Source: Mycolicibacterium goodii
GTDB taxonomy: Bacteria; Actinomycetota; Actinomycetes; Mycobacteriales; Mycobacteriaceae
Length of the DNA stretch: 64,000 nucleotides
Direction of reading: 5' to 3'
Assembly (NCBI RefSeq): GCF_022370755.2
Contig: NZ_CP092364.2
Span: 620,001-684,000, forward strand
The position numbers were made by a program, and so were the translations under genes. Below, in pieces: positions 7,795 through 16,592 of this stretch (its first letter is position 1; each line of letters opens with the position of its first letter). The notes beneath the pieces were generated by a model. The model saw nothing but the letters and a program-made list of their open reading frames with translations, did not search any database and was not told the DNA's origin.

Positions 7795-8433
7795 ATGGGC
7801 GGAGTCGGACTCTTCTATGTCGGGGCAGTGCTCATCATCGACGGGCTGATGCTGCTCGGTCGCATCAGTCCACGCGGGGCAACGCCGCTGAACTTCTTCG
7901 TCGGCACGCTGCAGGTGGTCACCCCGACCGTGCTCATCCTCCAGTCCGGCGGCGACGCGGACGTGATCTTCGCGGCCTCAGGGCTCTACCTGTTCGGCTT
8001 CACCTACCTGTGGGTGGCCATCAACAACGTGACCGACTGGGGCGGAGAAGGTCTCGGCTGGTTCTCGCTGTTCGTCGCGATCGCCGCACTCGGCTATTCG
8101 TGGCACGCGTTCACCGTCGAGGCCGACCCGGCGTTCGGGGTGATCTGGCTGCTGTGGGCCGTACTGTGGTTCTTGTTCTTCCTGCTGCTCGGTTTGCGAC
8201 GCGATGCGCTGGGACCGGCCGTCGGCTTCGTCGCCGTGGTCGACGGCGTGCTCACCGCCGCCATCCCCGCCTTCCTGATCGTCTCCGGCAACTGGCAGAC
8301 CGGACCATTGGCGGCGGCTGTCATCGCCGTGATCGGTTTCGCCGCAGTCATTCTCGCGTTCCCCATCGGGCGGCGGCTCGCCGCGCCGCCAGAGACCACC
8401 GCGACACCGGCCGCAACCGCGGCCGGCAAATAA
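7795..8433 (+). CDS. amiS: AmiS/UreI family amide transporter
   Basis: This is a 212-residue integral membrane protein with six or seven hydrophobic helices. Family features include the LGWFSLFVAIAALGYSWHAF segment and acidic or aromatic residues along the pore-lining helices. AmiS/UreI proteins are channels for urea or short-chain amides across the inner membrane. The coupling with amiD (four-base gap) and the acetamidase 18 bases downstream makes amide uptake for hydrolysis the clear role. The Ala/Thr-rich C-terminal tail is probably disordered. Confidence 0.92.
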   Translation: MGGVGLFYVGAVLIIDGLMLLGRISPRGATPLNFFVGTLQVVTPTVLILQSGGDADVIFAASGLYLFGFTYLWVAINNVTDWGGEGLGWFSLFVAIAALGYSWHAFTVEADPAFGVIWLLWAVLWFLFFLLLGLRRDALGPAVGFVAVVDGVLTAAIPAFLIVSGNWQTGPLAAAVIAVIGFAAVILAFPIGRRLAAPPETTATPAATAAGK

Positions 8434-8451
8434 GAGAAAGGGAGTCACCGC

Positions 8452-9699
8452 ATGCCCGAAGTAGTTTTCAGCGTCGATCAATCGAAATCGATGCGGGATC
8501 AGGCCGTCCCCGGCCACAACCGCTGGCACCCCGACATCCCGGCAGCCGCAACGGTCAAGCCCGGCAGTGAATTCCGGATCGAATGCAAGGAGTGGACCGA
8601 CGGCCAGATCGGGAACAACGATTCGGCCAACGACGTTCGTGACGTCGACCTCGCCCCGTGCCACATGTTGTCCGGACCCATCAAGGTCGAAGGCGCCGAA
8701 CCCGGTGACCTGCTGATCGTCGACATCCTCGACATCGGTCCGGTGCCGCAGACCAATGGGCCGAACTGCGGTGAGGGATGGGGTTATTCGGGCATCTTCG
8801 CCAAGGTCAACGGTGGCGGCTTCCTCACCGACTACTACCCGGACGCCTACAAGGCGATCTGGGATTTCCACGGCCAGCAGTGCACCTCACGGCATGTGCC
8901 CGGCGTTCGTTACACCGGCATCACCCACCCGGGCCTGTTCGGCACGGCGCCGTCGCCGGACCTGCTGGCGAAATGGAACGAGCGCGAACGCGCGCTGATC
9001 GCCACGGATCCGGACCGGGTGCCGCCGCTGGCGTTGCCGCCGCTGGTGGACGGGACGCTCGGCGGCACCGCCTCGGGTGACCTGCTGCAGGCGATCTCCA
9101 ACGACGGGGCCCGCACGGTGCCGCCCCGGGAGAACGGCGGCAACCACGACATCAAGAACTTCACCCGGGGCAGCCGGATCTTCTACCCGGTGTTCGTCGA
9201 GGGTGCCATGCTGTCCGGCGGCGACCTGCACTTCTCACAGGGTGACGGCGAGATCAACTTCTGCGGGGCCATCGAGATGGGCGGCTTCATCGACATGCAC
9301 GTCGACCTCATCAAGGGCGGCATGGAGACCTACGGCGTCACCACCAACCCGATCTTCATGCCGGGCCGGGTGGAGCCGCTCTACTCCGAATGGCTCACGT
9401 TCATCGGCATCTCGGTGGACCACGCCGAGAACCGCAACGCCTACATGGATGCGACGATGGCGTACCGCAACGCCTGCCTCAACGCCATCGAGTACATGAA
9501 GAAGTGGGGCTACACCGGTGAACAGGCCTACCTGATCCTCGGCACCTCACCGATCGAAGGCCGCATCGGCGGCGTCGTGGACATCCCGAACGCGTGCTGT
9601 TCGGTGTTCCTGCCGACCGAGATCTTCGACTTCGACATCCGCCCCGGCGGCAAGGGGCCGCAGAAGGTCGACCGCGGTCAGGTCGCAGTCACCTCCTAG
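8452..9699 (+). CDS. amiE: acetamidase/formamidase
   Basis: This 415-residue FmdA_AmdA-family enzyme hydrolyses short aliphatic amides to the carboxylate and ammonia in the cytoplasm. The N-terminal VFSVDQSKSMRDQAVPGHNRW and the central GGNHDIKNFTRGS and LHFSQGDGEI blocks are highly conserved in the family. The sequence closely matches what I recall of the inducible M. smegmatis acetamidase. GAAAGGGAG precedes the ATG. It is the last gene of the operon, followed by a 15-bp perfect hairpin. Expression is expected to be induced by acetamide through AmiA, AmiC and AmiD. Confidence 0.95.
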   Translation: MPEVVFSVDQSKSMRDQAVPGHNRWHPDIPAAATVKPGSEFRIECKEWTDGQIGNNDSANDVRDVDLAPCHMLSGPIKVEGAEPGDLLIVDILDIGPVPQTNGPNCGEGWGYSGIFAKVNGGGFLTDYYPDAYKAIWDFHGQQCTSRHVPGVRYTGITHPGLFGTAPSPDLLAKWNERERALIATDPDRVPPLALPPLVDGTLGGTASGDLLQAISNDGARTVPPRENGGNHDIKNFTRGSRIFYPVFVEGAMLSGGDLHFSQGDGEINFCGAIEMGGFIDMHVDLIKGGMETYGVTTNPIFMPGRVEPLYSEWLTFIGISVDHAENRNAYMDATMAYRNACLNAIEYMKKWGYTGEQAYLILGTSPIEGRIGGVVDIPNACCSVFLPTEIFDFDIRPGGKGPQKVDRGQVAVTS

Positions 9700-9839: not shown

Positions 9840-11642
9840 GTGACGGGCACGCCGAGAATTCAACGCACGACCACGGTGGGGCAGTTTCATGCGCTCCTCG
9901 ACCACCATGTGCCCAAGCCAACGCTGCAGCAGCGCGTCGACGTCGACGAATTCTGCGGCGGTATCCCCCAGGTGCCCGCGCGCGTGCCGTCGGTGCGGAT
10001 CGGTCGACGATGGGTCAGCCTGCTGTGGCTCGCCGTGCTGGCACTCGCGGGGCTCGCCGTCGTGGTCGCGGTCGCCATGCAGCTGCGCACCTTCGGCTGG
10101 GTGCAGCATTTCATCGCGGACTATCCCGGCACGTCGCCGACCTACGCCCAACCCGTCACAACGGGATTCCCGGCATGGCTGCGCTGGCAGCACTTCTTCA
10201 ACATCGTGTTCATGATGTTCATCATGCGGTCGGGTCTGCAGATCCTCGCCGACCATCCGCGGCTGTACCTCAACGCCGGATGCCGTCCGGGTTCGGAGTG
10301 GTTCCGGATGAGTCACCCGGTGCCCGCCGACCGTACCGACAAGAGCGACCCGCCGCGGGTGTGGACCTCGAAGGACGATGCGGTCTCGTTGCCGAAATGG
10401 TTGGGAATCCCTGGTCTTCGGCACTCGGTCGGCTTGGCGCGCTGGTGGCATTTCGGGTTCGACCTGCTGTGGCTGATCAACGGTGTCATCTTCTATGTGC
10501 TGTTGTTCGGCACCGATCAATGGCACCGCCTGGTGCCCCAGTCCTGGACGGTGTTCCCCAACGCGTTGTCGACGGCCATTCAGTATGCGTCGCTGAACTT
10601 CCCGGCCAACGAGGGTTTCGCCGAGTACAACGGTCTGCAGATCCTGGCCTACTTCATCACGGTGTTCATCGCCGCACCGCTGGCTGTCGTCACCGGTCTG
10701 CTGCAGGCGCCCGCCGTCGCCGCGCGACTCGGCACGGGCCGCGGGCCGTTCAACCGTCAGGTCGCCCGCACCGTGCACTTCGCGGTGTTGGCCTGGATGC
10801 TGATCTTCGTCGTCAGTCACGTCGCGATGGTGTTCGCAACGGGTGCGCTCGGCAACCTCAACCACATCGTGCTGGGGACTGCCAGCCACTCCTACCGGGC
10901 TCTGGTGATCTTCGCGGCCGCCGCGGTCGTCGTCGCGGTGCTGTGGGGCATCGCCACGCCGCTGACGCTCCGTTACCCGCGGGCCGTCCAGCACACCGGC
11001 CGGTTCATGGTCGGCTGGGCCAAGGCCTGGATGGAGCGCACCCACCCGAGGGCGTCCTACACGGACAACGACATCTCGCCCTATCACTGGGCCAACGGCC
11101 GGCCACCGTCCTCCGCGGAATACCAACGGCTGCGGGCCGACAACTGGGCGGACTACTCGCTGCGCATCGCCGGTCTGGTGGAGAACCCGACCGCCCTGTC
11201 CTACCGCGAACTGCTGGCGTTGCCCAAACACGAACAGATCACCCAGCACTACTGCATCCAGGGCTGGTCGGGTGTCGCCAAATGGGGCGGGGTCCGCGTG
11301 CGCGACATCCTCGACATCGTGCGTCCGCTGCCGACGGCGCGCTGGGTGGTGTTCTATTCGTTCGGCGACGGCGCCGAACCCGGCACCGGCCGGTACTACG
11401 ACTGCCACCGCATCGAGCACATGCGTGAGCCCATGGCACTGCTCGCCTACGAGATGAACGGCGAACCACTGCCCGAAATGCACGGTGCCCCATTGCGTCT
11501 GCGCAACGAACTGGAACTCGGGTTCAAACAGGTCAAGTGGATCGCGGCCATCGAGTTCGTCGAGAGCATCGCCGACGTGGGCTGGGGACACGGCGGCTAC
11601 AACGAGGACCACGAGTACTTCGGATACCGCATGCCGATATAG
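9840..11642 (+). CDS. membrane cytochrome b fused to sulfite-oxidase-type molybdopterin domain
   Basis: The 600-residue protein has an N-terminal membrane part of about five helices (residues ~55-390) with heme-ligand-type histidines (LRWQHFFN, RWWHFGFD, RTVHFAVL, VVSHVAM), followed by a cytoplasmic-type molybdopterin-binding domain (residues ~440-595). The latter has QHYCIQGWSGVAKWGGV, where the cysteine is the expected molybdenum ligand, as in MsrP/YedY and sulfite oxidase. It looks like MsrP and MsrQ modules in one chain. The substrate may be a sulfoxide or another S/N-oxide. No Tat signal precedes the Moco domain, so its side of the membrane depends on topology. GTG start with GGAGG upstream; the next small gene starts 12 bases downstream. 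Confidence 0.85.
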   Translation: MTGTPRIQRTTTVGQFHALLDHHVPKPTLQQRVDVDEFCGGIPQVPARVPSVRIGRRWVSLLWLAVLALAGLAVVVAVAMQLRTFGWVQHFIADYPGTSPTYAQPVTTGFPAWLRWQHFFNIVFMMFIMRSGLQILADHPRLYLNAGCRPGSEWFRMSHPVPADRTDKSDPPRVWTSKDDAVSLPKWLGIPGLRHSVGLARWWHFGFDLLWLINGVIFYVLLFGTDQWHRLVPQSWTVFPNALSTAIQYASLNFPANEGFAEYNGLQILAYFITVFIAAPLAVVTGLLQAPAVAARLGTGRGPFNRQVARTVHFAVLAWMLIFVVSHVAMVFATGALGNLNHIVLGTASHSYRALVIFAAAAVVVAVLWGIATPLTLRYPRAVQHTGRFMVGWAKAWMERTHPRASYTDNDISPYHWANGRPPSSAEYQRLRADNWADYSLRIAGLVENPTALSYRELLALPKHEQITQHYCIQGWSGVAKWGGVRVRDILDIVRPLPTARWVVFYSFGDGAEPGTGRYYDCHRIEHMREPMALLAYEMNGEPLPEMHGAPLRLRNELELGFKQVKWIAAIEFVESIADVGWGHGGYNEDHEYFGYRMPI

Positions 11643-11983: not shown

Positions 11984-12325
11984 TCAGTAGTCGGGCGTGC
12001 TGACGTCCTGGAGTTCTTCCTCGGGTCCTGTCTGTTCGACCTGCCCGGGCATCTGGGGCATCACCGGTCCCGCCTCGTCGCCGGTGGAGGGCTGGCATTC
12101 TGCGCCGGTGACCCCCGGCGGGCATTCGTTCGCCGGCGGCAGGCCGGCCGGCGCGGGGGAGTTGGGGACGAGGACCGGCGTGCAGGTGCCGGTGTAGAGA
12201 TCGCCCTCCTCACCGTGTGGGCATTCAGCGGCACCGGCCTGGACCGGCATGGCGACAGGGGCCATGGTGGCGGCCACGAACGCCGCGGCGATCAGGACCC
12301 GTCGAGCAGACAGCAGGGTCGGCAT
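11984..12325 (-). CDS. small secreted cysteine-containing protein
   Basis: This 113-residue protein has a Sec signal (MPTLLSARRVLIAAAFVAATMAPVAM, cleavage near QAGA-AEC) and a mature region with four cysteines (AECPHGE, TGTCTP, NECPPG, AECQPS), then an acidic tail. The spacing suggests two disulfides. Several mycobacteria encode similar short exported proteins of unknown role. GAAGGGAG precedes the start. It is divergent from the TetR gene at 12472. Confidence 0.75.
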   Translation of the reverse strand: MPTLLSARRVLIAAAFVAATMAPVAMPVQAGAAECPHGEEGDLYTGTCTPVLVPNSPAPAGLPPANECPPGVTGAECQPSTGDEAGPVMPQMPGQVEQTGPEEELQDVSTPDY

Positions 12326-12471
12326 CCCGTTGCACTCCCTTCAAGATCTGTATCCGGATTCAGGAAAGCGTATCGCCGCGCGTGAGCGCACGTTGTAAAA
12401 GCTGGATGAAAACTGCATCGAAGTTCAGGAAAACGCGCGCGGCGGTCGCGGATCGTTGGCAGCATGGCGCT

Positions 12472-13080
12472 GTGCCCGTCAGCCGAGCCGAACGTCGCGA
12501 GAAGTTGCTGCGTGCCGCCCAGAGCGCGGTGATGAAGTACGGCGTCGACGTCCAACTCAAGCAGGTGGCAGCCGAGGCCGGGCTGACCCCGGGCGCGGTG
12601 CTCTACCACTTCCCAGACATCCAGACACTGCTGATCGAGGCCAACCGTGCCGGTATCGAGCGCTTCTACGACGCGCGACTTCGCGTGATCGAAGGTGATG
12701 CGCCACCGGACCGGAAACTCGTGACCACCATCGAGTCAGGGCTTCCGGTCGACGCCGACGACCCCGACGTCAAGCTCATGTGCGCGCTCGGCGGAGCGGC
12801 CGCTCGCCACCCCGCCTATGCCGTCATGCTGACCGCGCTGTACGACCGGCAGGTGGCGATGTATCAGGTGATCCTCGAATCCGGCGTTGCCAAGGGCATT
12901 TTCGCGCTCACATCGTCGTCACTGGCCATCGCCCGCAACATCGTGGCCCTCGAAGACGCCTACGGCTACCGAATGGTGGCACGCCACCCCAGCCTGGACG
13001 TCGACACCGCGGTCGACCTGATCTGTGACTACGCGCGGGTGGCCACCGGCCATCCGCTTCCCCGACCCGTCCGCACCTGA
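12472..13080 (+). CDS. TetR family regulator preceding the glycosyltransferase operon
   Basis: The protein has about 202 residues from the GTG at 12472 (VPVSRAERREKLLRAAQ); an ATG at 12406 would add 22 basic residues and cannot be excluded. The HTH is VQLKQVAAEAGLTPGAVLYHFPDIQTLLIEA, followed by a TetR ligand domain. It ends 10 bases before the glycosyltransferase gene in the same direction, so it is probably the operon's first gene and local regulator. Ligand unknown. Confidence 0.85.
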   Translation: MPVSRAERREKLLRAAQSAVMKYGVDVQLKQVAAEAGLTPGAVLYHFPDIQTLLIEANRAGIERFYDARLRVIEGDAPPDRKLVTTIESGLPVDADDPDVKLMCALGGAAARHPAYAVMLTALYDRQVAMYQVILESGVAKGIFALTSSSLAIARNIVALEDAYGYRMVARHPSLDVDTAVDLICDYARVATGHPLPRPVRT

Positions 13081-13090
13081 AGGGGCTTTC

Positions 13091-14416
13091 GTGACCGACC
13101 CGAATGTGACCACCTCCGCCAAGCTGACCATCATGTTCTGGCCCGAATCCGCCTACGGCCCCACCAATCAGTGCATCGGGCTGGCGGCCGTCCTGCGCGA
13201 GCGCGGTCACACGATCGTGTTCGCCGCGGAAAGCTCGTGGGCCGGCAAGCTCGCGCCGTACGGATTCATCGAGGAACTCGTGGACCTCGCCGAACCGGCC
13301 GCGGGCGCCGAGGACGAGGACCCGGGAAAGTTCTGGGCCGACTTCATCGCCGAAACCGCACCGGAGTTCCGCAAGCCGACCGTCGAACAGCTGGAGACGT
13401 TCATCCAACCGACCTACCAGGCGCTGATCGACGGCGCCAAGTACTGCGAACCACGGCTACGCCAGATCATCGAGACGCACCGGCCCGACGTCATCGTCGA
13501 GGACAACGTGGTGCTGTTCCCGGCGCTGGCCACCGCGGGTGTGCCGTTCGTGCGCATCGTCTCGTGCAGCCCGCTGGAGATCACCGGACCGCAGGTGCCG
13601 CCGCCGTTCTCCGGCCTGCCGAGCGCCGACGACTCCGAATGGGCTTCCTACCGTGCAGAATTCGACCGCACCCACCGCGCCATGTGGACCGATTTCGACG
13701 AGTGGGTGCGGGCACAGGGCGCCGAGCCGCTACCCGACCTGGAGTTCATGCCGCGCGCCAACGCCGCGAACCTCTACGTCTACCCGGCCGAGGCCGACTA
13801 CACCCAGACCCGGCCGCTCGACGGCACGTGGATCCGCATGGACTCCAGCGTGCGCGAGACCGACGAGGACTACACCGTGCCCGACCAACTCGCCGACCGT
13901 GGGGACGAATGCGGCCTCGTCTACCTGTCGCTGGGATCTCTCGGCGGCGCCGATGTCGAGCTCATGCAACGGCTGGTGGACGTTCTCGGCAAGACCCGGC
14001 ATCGGTTCATCGTCAGCAAGGGGCCGCAGGCCGACCGCATCACGTTGGCCGACAACATGGTCGGCGCGCAGATGCTGCCGCAGACCAAGGTGATCCCGCA
14101 GGTCGACCTCGTGATCTCGCACGGCGGCAACAACACCGTCACCGAGACCCTGCATTTCGGCAAACCGTTGATCGTGCTGCCGTTGTTCTGGGACCAGTAC
14201 GAAAACGCCCAGCGCATCGACGAACTCGGGTTCGGCATCCGGCTGGACACCTACCGGTTCACCGACACCGAGCTGACCGATGCCGTGGACCGCCTGCTCG
14301 CCGACACCGAGTTGCGCGCGAAGCTCGACGGCATCGGCGCCGCGATCCGATCGCGAGACGGCCTTCGGGTGGGAGCCGACGCCATCGAACGCGTCGGGCT
14401 GGAACAGCGGGCGTGA
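13091..14416 (+). CDS. GT1 (UGT/macrolide-type) glycosyltransferase
   Basis: This 441-residue GT-B enzyme has an N-terminal acceptor domain (PESAYGPTNQCIGLAAVLRERGH) and a C-terminal nucleotide-sugar domain with LVISHGGNNTVTETL (His344) and PLFWDQYENAQRIDELGFG, the donor-binding signature of UGT-like transferases. These transfer a sugar from a nucleotide donor to small lipophilic acceptors. The GTG start follows AAGGGGC. Its stop overlaps the start of the kinase gene by four bases, so translation is coupled. The context suggests an aminosugar- or sugar-decorated small molecule, or detoxification by glycosylation. Confidence 0.9.
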   Translation: MTDPNVTTSAKLTIMFWPESAYGPTNQCIGLAAVLRERGHTIVFAAESSWAGKLAPYGFIEELVDLAEPAAGAEDEDPGKFWADFIAETAPEFRKPTVEQLETFIQPTYQALIDGAKYCEPRLRQIIETHRPDVIVEDNVVLFPALATAGVPFVRIVSCSPLEITGPQVPPPFSGLPSADDSEWASYRAEFDRTHRAMWTDFDEWVRAQGAEPLPDLEFMPRANAANLYVYPAEADYTQTRPLDGTWIRMDSSVRETDEDYTVPDQLADRGDECGLVYLSLGSLGGADVELMQRLVDVLGKTRHRFIVSKGPQADRITLADNMVGAQMLPQTKVIPQVDLVISHGGNNTVTETLHFGKPLIVLPLFWDQYENAQRIDELGFGIRLDTYRFTDTELTDAVDRLLADTELRAKLDGIGAAIRSRDGLRVGADAIERVGLEQRA

Positions 14417-15618
14417 TCGAACTCGACCACCTCGATCTCGGCGACGGCCGCCGTTTGGTGATCACGTCGGGCCCGGATGGTCCGGCCGCGACACCGTCGC
14501 GGCGCGACGCCGACGGTCATTGGCGGCGCGCCGAACCCGGCGACGGGGTCGCCGAGGCCATGCTCGACGTCCTGTCCGGCAATCCGGGCACCACCGAACA
14601 CGGGAACTTCACGCTGATCTCGTGGGCCCCGCAGACCGCGAGGGGAGAGCGGCCGATCACCGTCGACCAGACCAACGAATCGGTGATCGTCGGCGACCGC
14701 GCCGTCGTCAAGTGGGCCACCCACCTGCAGGAGGGGCCGCACCCGGCACCCGCGCGCATCAGCGCGTTGCGCGGCGCCGGATTCCGCGGGATGCCCACGC
14801 CGTGGGGACTGGTCATGTGGCAGCCCCCGGGGCAGGCCGAGACCCTCGTCGTCACGGTCGATGAATACCTGCCGCACGCCGAGGACGGCTGGACGTGGGC
14901 CGTCGCGCTCGTCACCGATGCCGCACAGCACCGTGCAGCCGTGCCGGCGCTGCTCGACGCGATCACCGCCGTCGGGTTCGTCGTCGCGGAACTTCATGCC
15001 GCGCAAGCGGTAACGGTCAACACGGCCACTGCCGCCGACGCACGGGCCTGGCGAGAGGCGGCCCTGGAGACCGTCGAGACGGCCGCGACGCTGGGTAGGT
15101 CGGTCAGCGGCGATTTGCTGCGGGCGCGTCGAACCGAGATCGAGACGATCCTGCGCGGGCTCGGCGACCTCGCCGGCAGCCCGGTGCTCGCGGGGCACGG
15201 TGACCTGCACGTCGGGCAGGTGCTGCGCGCTGGGCGTCGTTTCGTCATCACCGATTTCGACGGCAACCCGGTGCTACCCGCCGAGGCGCGGGTCAAACCC
15301 GTCCCCGCTGCGCTCGACGTCGCCGGCATGGCGCAGTCGCTGGTCCACGTCGCGATCGTGGCGCGCAAGTACACCGATCTCGACCTCGCGGTGCTTGCCG
15401 ACATCGACCGCCTGTCCCGCGATACGTTCATCGGCGCCTATACCGACCGACTCGCGGCGCTCGGCCACAGTGCCGTCTACGATCCGGCGCCGCTGCGGGC
15501 TCTGCGACTACAACAGGTGCTGCGGGAGATGATCTATGCGGCACGGCATCTCCCACGCTGGATGTACGTGCCCGATGCGGCGCTGCCCGCGCTGCTCGAC
15601 GAAGGGACCACCACGTGA
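14413..15618 (+). CDS. maltokinase-like / glucosamine-kinase-like phosphotransferase
   Basis: The protein has 401 residues with an aminoglycoside-phosphotransferase fold. The catalytic loop is AGHGDLHVGQVL (His262, Asp264) and the Mg-binding motif VITDFDGNP (Asp281). This GDxHxGQ...DFDGNP pattern is shared with mycobacterial maltokinase (Pep2) and the actinobacterial glucosamine kinases, rather than true aminoglycoside-resistance enzymes. The N-terminal ~110 residues form the cap region. The GTG start overlaps the transferase stop, and its own stop overlaps the SIS gene start. Pairing with a SIS sugar isomerase favours glucosamine or another amino sugar as substrate; maltose is less likely because trehalose/maltose genes are absent. 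Confidence 0.82.
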   Translation: MIELDHLDLGDGRRLVITSGPDGPAATPSRRDADGHWRRAEPGDGVAEAMLDVLSGNPGTTEHGNFTLISWAPQTARGERPITVDQTNESVIVGDRAVVKWATHLQEGPHPAPARISALRGAGFRGMPTPWGLVMWQPPGQAETLVVTVDEYLPHAEDGWTWAVALVTDAAQHRAAVPALLDAITAVGFVVAELHAAQAVTVNTATAADARAWREAALETVETAATLGRSVSGDLLRARRTEIETILRGLGDLAGSPVLAGHGDLHVGQVLRAGRRFVITDFDGNPVLPAEARVKPVPAALDVAGMAQSLVHVAIVARKYTDLDLAVLADIDRLSRDTFIGAYTDRLAALGHSAVYDPAPLRALRLQQVLREMIYAARHLPRWMYVPDAALPALLDEGTTT

Positions 15619-16592
15619 ACCCCGACGCGTTCGTCGCGGATCTGGAACGCAAACCGGATGTGCTGAGCCGGCTCGCGGTCACCCTCGCCGAGGGGAACCC
15701 GTGGGCGGACGTGGCCGGACCGGGTGTCGGCCGGGTCGTTCTGCTCGGCATGGGATCGTCGGCCTACGCCGGTGGGGTGGCCGCCGCACGCATGCGGGCC
15801 CGCGGTCTGGTCGCGGTGTCGGATCTGGCGTCGTCGTCGCTGTTGCCGCGCTGGGATGCGGGCACTCTGGTGGTCGCGACCTCGGCGACGGGCGGCTCGG
15901 TGGAAACCCTCGACGCGCTCGAGCGCATGCAGGCCGCCAGCCCCGCCGCGACGTTCGTCGCGCTCACGAACACGCCTGGCTCGGCCCTCGCGCAACGGTG
16001 CGGTGCGGTTGTCGATCTTGCCGCCGAGACCGAGGAGGGCGGCGTCGCCTGCCGCACCTACCAGCACACCGTCGCGATGCTGATCGCCCTCGAACAACAA
16101 TTGGCCGGCGGTGACACCACGATGCTGGCCGCTGCCGTGGCCGCGGCGGCAACTGCCAGCGCGCATCTGCTCGACACCGAGGATTCGTGGCGGCCGCGCG
16201 CCACCGAACTGCTGCTCGGACCCGCGGGCACGCATCTCGCGGCTCCGGCGCATCGGTTCTCCTCGGCGCAGCAGGGTGCACTCATGCTGCGGGAAGGGCC
16301 CCGCCTGGCCGCGGTGGGCTGTGAGACCGGCGACTGGAGCCACGTCGACGTGTACCTGACCAAGACCACCGACTACCGGCTGCTCGTGTTCGCCGGATCG
16401 CCGTGGGAGCCGCAACTCGCCGAGTGGACGACGATGCGGGGCGCCACGGTCGTCGGGGTCGGTGGCGCGGTCCCCGGCGCACAGTTCACGGTGCGCTATC
16501 CGGGGGACGACGACGATCTCGTGCGGCTGCTGACCGAGGTGCTGGTGCCCGAACTCGTCGCCGCGAGGGCGTGGCAGAAGCAGCAGCGTTAA
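15615..16592 (+). CDS. SIS-domain phosphosugar isomerase (GlmS/AgaS-like)
   Basis: This 325-residue protein has tandem SIS folds. The first has VVLLGMGSSAYAGGVAAARM and ATSATGGSVETL, phosphosugar-binding Ser-rich loops like those in the isomerase half of glucosamine-6-phosphate synthase. There is no glutaminase domain, so it would act as a deaminase or isomerase on a phosphorylated aminosugar, plausibly the product of the upstream kinase. GTG start overlaps the kinase stop by four bases. It is the last gene of the coupled trio; a 351-base gap with a riboswitch follows. Confidence 0.85.
   Translation: MNPDAFVADLERKPDVLSRLAVTLAEGNPWADVAGPGVGRVVLLGMGSSAYAGGVAAARMRARGLVAVSDLASSSLLPRWDAGTLVVATSATGGSVETLDALERMQAASPAATFVALTNTPGSALAQRCGAVVDLAAETEEGGVACRTYQHTVAMLIALEQQLAGGDTTMLAAAVAAAATASAHLLDTEDSWRPRATELLLGPAGTHLAAPAHRFSSAQQGALMLREGPRLAAVGCETGDWSHVDVYLTKTTDYRLLVFAGSPWEPQLAEWTTMRGATVVGVGGAVPGAQFTVRYPGDDDDLVRLLTEVLVPELVAARAWQKQQR

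Follow-up and report, generated by a model that had tools for sequence, protein, structure and literature searches.

Putrescine is catabolized by Escherichia coli in gamma-glutamylated form through the Puu pathway. Here we analyzed 64,000 nucleotides of Mycolicibacterium goodii DNA (bases 620001-684000 of a single 6.74 Mb contig, NZ_CP092364.2), hereafter called the window. We focused on four genes, all on the + strand, that encode in this order a TetR-family regulator (TetR), a glycosyltransferase (GT), a kinase and a SIS phosphosugar isomerase (SIS protein). The kinase-SIS-GT cluster was already described by Manso et al. (2019, PMC6520443), who linked it to biosynthetic gene clusters and antibiotic biosynthesis. 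The SjGlcNK/MsGlcNK cluster of that paper has the same kinase family and the same three genes, with M. smegmatis as a carrier, and the set in the window is a member. According to the accessible text of the paper, the Km for glucosamine was 8 mM, maltose was not a substrate, and the M. smegmatis homologue was assayed as a glucosamine kinase with a similar Km; the physiological role of these kinases was said to lack experimental evidence. Its main text, as far as accessible, mentions no polyamine, putrescine, spermidine, aldehyde dehydrogenase or TetR.

The operon itself is therefore not new, and the additions of the present analysis are an amine-type locus, a GT without its catalytic His and a twin operator. 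Gene families, co-inheritance with importer and dehydrogenase genes, loss of the catalytic His and the twin operators were computed here. Our preferred reading, to which we give a little less than an even chance, is that the four genes would form one half, the sugar-handling one, of an actinobacterial pathway for amine uptake and oxidation. In it the GT would put a sugar on an amine nitrogen, and the kinase and SIS protein would recover the sugar. If it holds, a family that was connected with antibiotic production by its authors would move to nitrogen and carbon nutrition. The amine-type locus, a PotB restricted to GT and kinase genomes, the missing catalytic base and the twin operator make the role of the cluster directly testable. 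Our literature searches, mostly without subscription papers, found nothing joining polyamine, glucosamine kinase and glycosyltransferase, and nothing joining putrescine, Actinobacteria, gamma-glutamylputrescine and glycosyltransferase. A search on glycosylated polyamines and SjGlcNK turned up only the 2019 paper and synthetic chemistry.

The spread of the set was followed in an even sample of 394 Actinobacteria (class sample) and in a genus sample of 396 genomes. The kinase scored above the cut-off of the NCBIfam glucosamine kinase model NF041273 in 82 genomes of the genus sample. In the class sample it was found at E 1e-60 in 43 genomes, six of them above the cut-off, and the GT at E 1e-100 in 57; 42 of the 43 kinase genomes also hold the GT. 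GT-bearing genomes span 1.3 to 11.2 Mb. The 75 named kinase loci gave the GT in 72, the SIS protein in 72 and both in 70. Rare co-occurrence of the three genes, which would have told against a common role, was thus not what we found.

Neighbourhoods were read from 38 stretches fetched from kinase hits (37 from the class sample, 1 from a family sample), 18 from GT hits and 5 from the window's own family. Genes were called by open reading frame scripts rather than by a trained caller, and the first version missed some, including the window's kinase. One stretch (L130, 3.2 kb) and some loci at contig ends are too short for neighbours and were scored as misses. Six stretches are duplicates (L086=L067, L087=L071, L089=L068, L098=L077, L092=L081 and L122=L084). 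L086, L087 and L089 were excluded from the operator and PotD counts, and all six from the GT, kinase, SIS and TetR alignments, which used hits covering at least 85% of the query. The class counts of neighbour genes keep all duplicates and are made per genome; the class and named sets overlap. L162, L163 and L165, apparent counterparts of L034, L064 and L011, were used only in neighbour-gene counts.

Clustering of the neighbours revealed, divergent from TetR-GT-kinase-SIS, a flavin adenine dinucleotide (FAD) oxidoreductase (PF01266) and an aldehyde dehydrogenase (ALDH) that passes the aminobutyraldehyde dehydrogenase model. They are accompanied by an ABC importer of the spermidine/putrescine type (Pot) or by an amino-acid-type permease. 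Counted once per genome, at least two of PotB, PotC and PotD were present in 26 of the 57 GT stretches, ALDH or FAD oxidoreductase in 29, and Pot genes or ALDH/FAD oxidoreductase in 32, from 8 of 14 families. ALDH was present in 21 of the 26 Pot-linked stretches. In the 75 named loci, ALDH and FAD oxidoreductase were both found in 20, an APC permease in 12 and Pot genes in 8. Gene order varies by family. In family f19 the Pot genes sit between GT and kinase, so the linkage has outlived rearrangement. On the GT tree, 13 changes of the amine-context label were needed, 8 of them forced by well supported branches.

PotB of the GT-linked type was found in 28 of the 394 genomes, all of them GT or kinase genomes, and in 26 it lies within 4.1 kb of the GT. 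Hits ended at E 1e-95, with nothing further down to the limit of 1e-75. The query came from L067 and finds itself (G946), and six first-look candidates were scored per genome. GT genomes account for 27 of the 28 (hypergeometric P 8e-25, not corrected for shared ancestry).

The GT matches UDPGT in Pfam and has a GT-B fold like that of solved GT1 enzymes, which agrees with the initial annotation of a small-molecule glycosyltransferase. Its closest solved relatives by profile and fold are the Tetranychus UDP-glycosyltransferases (UGTs) UGT202A2 and UGT203A2 (GT1; PDB 8sft and 7lvy). These mite enzymes retain the His of the GHVN/GHLN motif, whereas Pro24 of the window GT faces it in the alignment, and Pro occupies this catalytic His place of the GT1 family in all 117 aligned actinobacterial GTs. 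The place of Asp138, which we take to be that of the partner in the catalytic His-Asp dyad, is Asp in 117 of 117. As judged from its sequence, the GT is a GT1 enzyme by fold that is without the base for O-transfer, and the complete dyad is absent. Loss of the His with retention of the Asp is also the pattern of N-glycosyltransferases. Weaker GT matches include antibiotic GTs; the score against the NCBIfam macrolide GT model (122.3 bits) is far short of the cut-off of 260. In the GT tree the window groups with Mycolicibacterium wolinskyi, Mycobacterium aquaticum and Mycolicibacterium brisbanense (SH-like approximate likelihood ratio test 96). The mite UGTs are held to derive from a bacterial gene (PMC7738191, accessible part).

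By model score and motif, the kinase is an actinobacterial glucosamine kinase (NF041273). It scored 614.7 bits against this model (cut-off 550) and failed the maltokinase model TIGR02457 with 96.4 bits (cut-off 375). The best solved relative was glucosamine kinase 6hwj (E 2.3e-73), with maltokinases next at 4e-16. The HGD at residues 262-264 and the DFDGNP at 281-286, noted earlier, are both present. The published glucosamine-kinase motif is complete, with D264-L-H266 (D-x-H) in the catalytic loop and Q368...W383 in helix 12. The full glucosamine-binding signature is present in 88 of 96 aligned kinases, including that of the window, and its Gln, the contact of the amino group, is kept in 94. 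The earlier call of an aminosugar kinase thus stands, and the identities of maltokinase and resistance aminoglycoside phosphotransferase were rejected on model scores and motif. Pfam gave zero matches to the kinase even at E 1, and of the 25 places in the window's genome that PF01636 hit at E 0.001, none was this kinase. The nearest named kinase is from M. goodii (83%).

The SIS protein, as first predicted, has no glutaminase half: SIS is its one Pfam match over 325 aa, and the glutaminase domain was not matched. It shares the SIS fold with the GlmS isomerase domain, NagB-II deaminase and FrlB deglycase, and differs from GlmS in lacking the N-terminal glutaminase half. A Glu and a His are the catalytic residues of the GlmS isomerase domain. 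In the SIS protein, Glu227 and His243 are each conserved in 109 of 109 sequences, and in a profile alignment, whose reference was not GlmS itself, they align with the Glu and the His found in 3knz and 3g68. Fold comparison gave the isomerase-domain fold of GlmS. The match to an FrlB-type deglycase was weaker, and this identity was retained only as a possibility.

Taken to the level of mechanism, the preferred reading would be glycosyl-dependent amine catabolism: the His-less GT1 enzyme would N-glycosylate an imported amine, the sugar would serve as a removable handle during oxidation, and kinase and SIS protein would recycle it. We hold this fuller scheme with more doubt than the general one, and well below an even chance. 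Under the general reading, the amine would enter through the PotABCD-like importer or the APC permease, and the GT, with a UDP-sugar as donor, would glycosylate one amine nitrogen with a hexose or hexosamine. Oxidation of the free end to an acid would then fall to the aminobutyraldehyde dehydrogenase together with the FAD oxidoreductase or, in its place, a class III aminotransferase. The freed amino sugar would be phosphorylated by the kinase, and the SIS protein would interconvert glucosamine-6-phosphate, or an N-substituted form, with fructose-6-phosphate. A UTP-glucose-1-phosphate uridylyltransferase of the UDPGP family would replenish the UDP-sugar pool. The sugar would thus take the role of the gamma-glutamyl group in E. 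coli. Amine-type loci follow the logic of Puu, in which an importer, a FAD amine oxidase and an aldehyde dehydrogenase act on an amine; GT, sugar kinase and sugar isomerase would replace its gamma-glutamyl synthetase and hydrolase. Among the 45 recurrent neighbour clusters, inspected by eye, no gamma-glutamylpolyamine synthetase or hydrolase was recognized, where no search with models of these two enzymes was made. Should Actinobacteria really use glycosyl-dependent amine catabolism, it would be the equivalent, based on sugar, of the gamma-glutamyl pathway and would give the glucosamine-kinase cluster its first assigned role.

Several observations weigh against an amine pathway. Amine genes were not seen in 25 of the 57 GT stretches, including all seven of family f20, the window and five other sampled genomes of its family; they are not beside the set in most mycobacteria. 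Amine genes are not adjacent in the window's own genome, where orthology and the shared operator are therefore the basis for the proposed role. The nearest FAD oxidoreductase in this genome (48%, at 2.156 Mb) has no ALDH or Pot-permease neighbour. The FAD oxidoreductase (at least 45% identity) was recognized in only 12 of the 26 Pot-linked stretches, and L139, L142 and L145 have neither it nor ALDH. Shared ancestry of related genomes also makes the association counts non-independent. No deconjugating hydrolase was recognized among the neighbours, where no search with its own model was made, and weak O-transfer by His-less enzymes has also been reported.

Curated names of the importer permeases, the binding protein and the FAD enzyme were all below cut-off. 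For the FAD enzyme the best names were pipecolate oxidase and aminophosphonate oxidoreductase, each falling far short of its cut-off (for the latter, 236.7 bits with a cut-off of 632.8); for the importer ATPase, the best name by E-value was aminoethylphosphonate transporter ATPase, again below cut-off. 'Amine' is therefore a safer label than 'polyamine', since two of the best names point to aminophosphonates. The FAD enzyme would act on amines, and an aminophosphonate may also be its substrate. PotD contacts spermidine through Glu36, Glu171 and Asp257 (PMC4096761, accessible part). In the binding protein, Asp257 is kept in 33 of 33 sequences, Trp replaces Glu171 in 33 of 33, and an acid is found at the Glu36 place in 3 of 33 and at the preceding place in 20. 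The three amine-contacting acids are thus not all present, and with this loss plain spermidine is an improbable ligand. A mono-amine would fit, as would an amine that carries a ring at one end.

Salvage of free glucosamine is an unlikely alternative in our view. The kinase would make glucosamine-6-phosphate, the SIS protein would convert it to fructose-6-phosphate and ammonia, the importer would serve cationic amino sugars, and the GT would have a side role. This leaves unexplained the FAD oxidoreductase, the aminobutyraldehyde dehydrogenase and the GT; of the three enzymes, the GT is the best conserved, averaging 0.72 identity to the window (SIS 0.63, kinase 0.51). One locus (L128) has GT, FAD oxidoreductase and ALDH, with kinase and SIS not in its 19 kb stretch, and a Km of 8 mM is weak. 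In a second alternative, which we consider improbable, the GT would cap a toxic amine or amino-aldehyde for storage or export of the conjugate, and kinase and SIS protein would merely supply the donor sugar phosphate. Importer and oxidizing enzymes suggest nutrient use rather than exclusion, and exporter-like neighbours (one MFS and two MMPL-like clusters, by eye) occur in only 3-4 of 66 loci each.

Least probable of the three, and quite improbable, is the 2019 proposal that the set tailors a secondary metabolite with sugar or feeds DasR signalling. The accessible part of that paper places the genes inside predicted biosynthetic gene clusters in all species drawn except M. smegmatis (Manso et al. 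2019, PMC6520443). By eye and by family searches of some of them, we recognized no polyketide or peptide synthetase among the 45 most shared neighbour clusters; an AMP-binding ligase makes up one cluster, found in 7 loci. The same GT, with both halves conserved, adjoins the importer in 1.3 Mb genomes, which suggests one metabolic acceptor rather than diverse antibiotics. A search for CDPS (cyclodipeptide cluster) gave no match in the window's genome and none in the control genomes either, and is uninformative. Anti-phage defence was rejected, as the four proteins had no PADLOC match at E 0.001.

Without amine genes beside it, the set in the window still has the twin operator of the TetR. The window TetR is 56-88% identical to those of related loci, apart from a 29% hit in L145. 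Within 250 bases before TetR, the best match to TTGAAT-N4-ATTCAA averaged 9.9 of 12 in 46 loci, compared with 7.1 in shuffled sequence. The two best matrix sites were 63-67 bp apart in 37 of the 46 TetR loci; 200 rounds of shuffling gave a mean of 1.4 and a maximum of 5 of 46. The pattern had been loosened after one window site had been seen, so the matrix was trained without the window and L011-L013. All four held-out loci show the 65 bp operator spacing. The matrix has some circularity for the other 42 loci, several of which (e.g. L132, L140 and L112) have a weak second site. The loosened pattern had two matches in the whole window, with 0.08 expected, and both are the twin operator sites. 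A genome-wide search for a TetR regulon with a stricter pattern gave 8 strand matches (7 places), compared with 8 for the reversed control, and no convincing target besides the window's own site. One operator-pattern match inside the coding frame of a fructosamine-kinase-like protein, seen by eye, was taken as chance.

The features are listed in Table 1. The TetR gene was correctly placed next to the set in the initial annotation: its stop at 13080 is followed after ten bases by the GTG start of the GT at 13091. The four-base GTGA overlaps were also confirmed, as two junctions among the three genes (GT/kinase, 14413-14416; kinase/SIS, 15615-15618). Overall, enzyme families, TetR and co-occurrence held. 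The set was nevertheless already known from mycobacteria: the 2019 paper contains a drawing of the cluster and an assay of the kinase from M. smegmatis; amine context and His loss were not visible from the window.

Table 1. Coordinates of the TetR-GT-kinase-SIS set and its predicted operators in the window
Feature	Positions	Strand	Evidence
Predicted TetR operator 1 CTGTATCCGGATTCAG, upstream half of twin operator	12348..12363	+	Second-best site, matrix trained without window locus
Predicted TetR operator 2 CTGCATCGAAGTTCAG	12413..12428	+	Best site upstream of TetR gene
TetR-family regulator, 202 aa	12472..13080	+	PF00440, 28.2 bits, cut-off 24
GT1-type UDP-glycosyltransferase, 441 aa, without catalytic His of family	13091..14416	+	UDPGT Pfam, fold, alignment
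GT codon Pro24, at GT1 catalytic His place	13160..13162	+	Alignment of 117 GTs and solved mite UGTs
GT codon Asp138, aligned with Asp of dyad	13502..13504	+	117 GTs and alignment to solved UGT203A2
Glucosamine kinase (NF041273), 401 aa	14413..15618	+	NCBIfam equivalog model, signature, solved relative
Glucosamine-binding signature Q-x2-RE-x2-YA-x3-LP-x-W, kinase residues 368-383	15514..15561	+	Motif alignment
SIS phosphosugar isomerase, GlmS isomerase-domain fold, 325 aa	15615..16592	+	SIS Pfam match, fold comparison
SIS Glu227 (16293-16295) and His243 (16341-16343), candidate catalytic pair	16293..16343	+	Alignment, 109 SIS proteins

Operator 2 is separated from the TetR start by 43 bases. 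The divergent neighbour of TetR in the window is not an amine operon; it encodes a 113 aa protein with a hydrophobic N-terminus (11984-12325, - strand), whose start is 22 bases from the nearer predicted operator. TetR may control this protein too, because the predicted twin operators lie in the gap between the two genes.

Several loci depart from the common arrangement. L018 has the kinase with a scrap of GT (9% covered) and no SIS seen, and L046 and L085 have kinase, SIS, ALDH, FAD oxidoreductase and APC permease with no GT seen. In L138 and L142 (family f28, 1.3 Mb genomes), PotABCD, GT and SIS are kept and the kinase is strongly diverged (32% over a third of its length, and 24%). L134 and L136 have a tandem GT pair, with kinase, SIS and amine genes not in the stretch; one copy in the genome of L134 holds a TGA. 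The set lies near a class III aminotransferase (PRK06541 type) and ALDH in family f27 (L092, L097 and L098), and near an ornithine aminotransferase in f40 (L088, L090 and L095). A UDPGP-family gene is next door in 4 of the 75 named loci, 3' of SIS (L048, L049, L050 and L052; Pfam match shown for L049).

Elsewhere in the window, an AmiS/UreI channel gene is followed by an acetamidase/formamidase gene (7795-9699), an arrangement that presumably resembles the mycobacterial acetamidase operon. Next to it, 9840-11642 encodes a 600 aa protein that fuses a molybdopterin oxidoreductase domain to a cytochrome b561-like membrane part, the latter just under cut-off.

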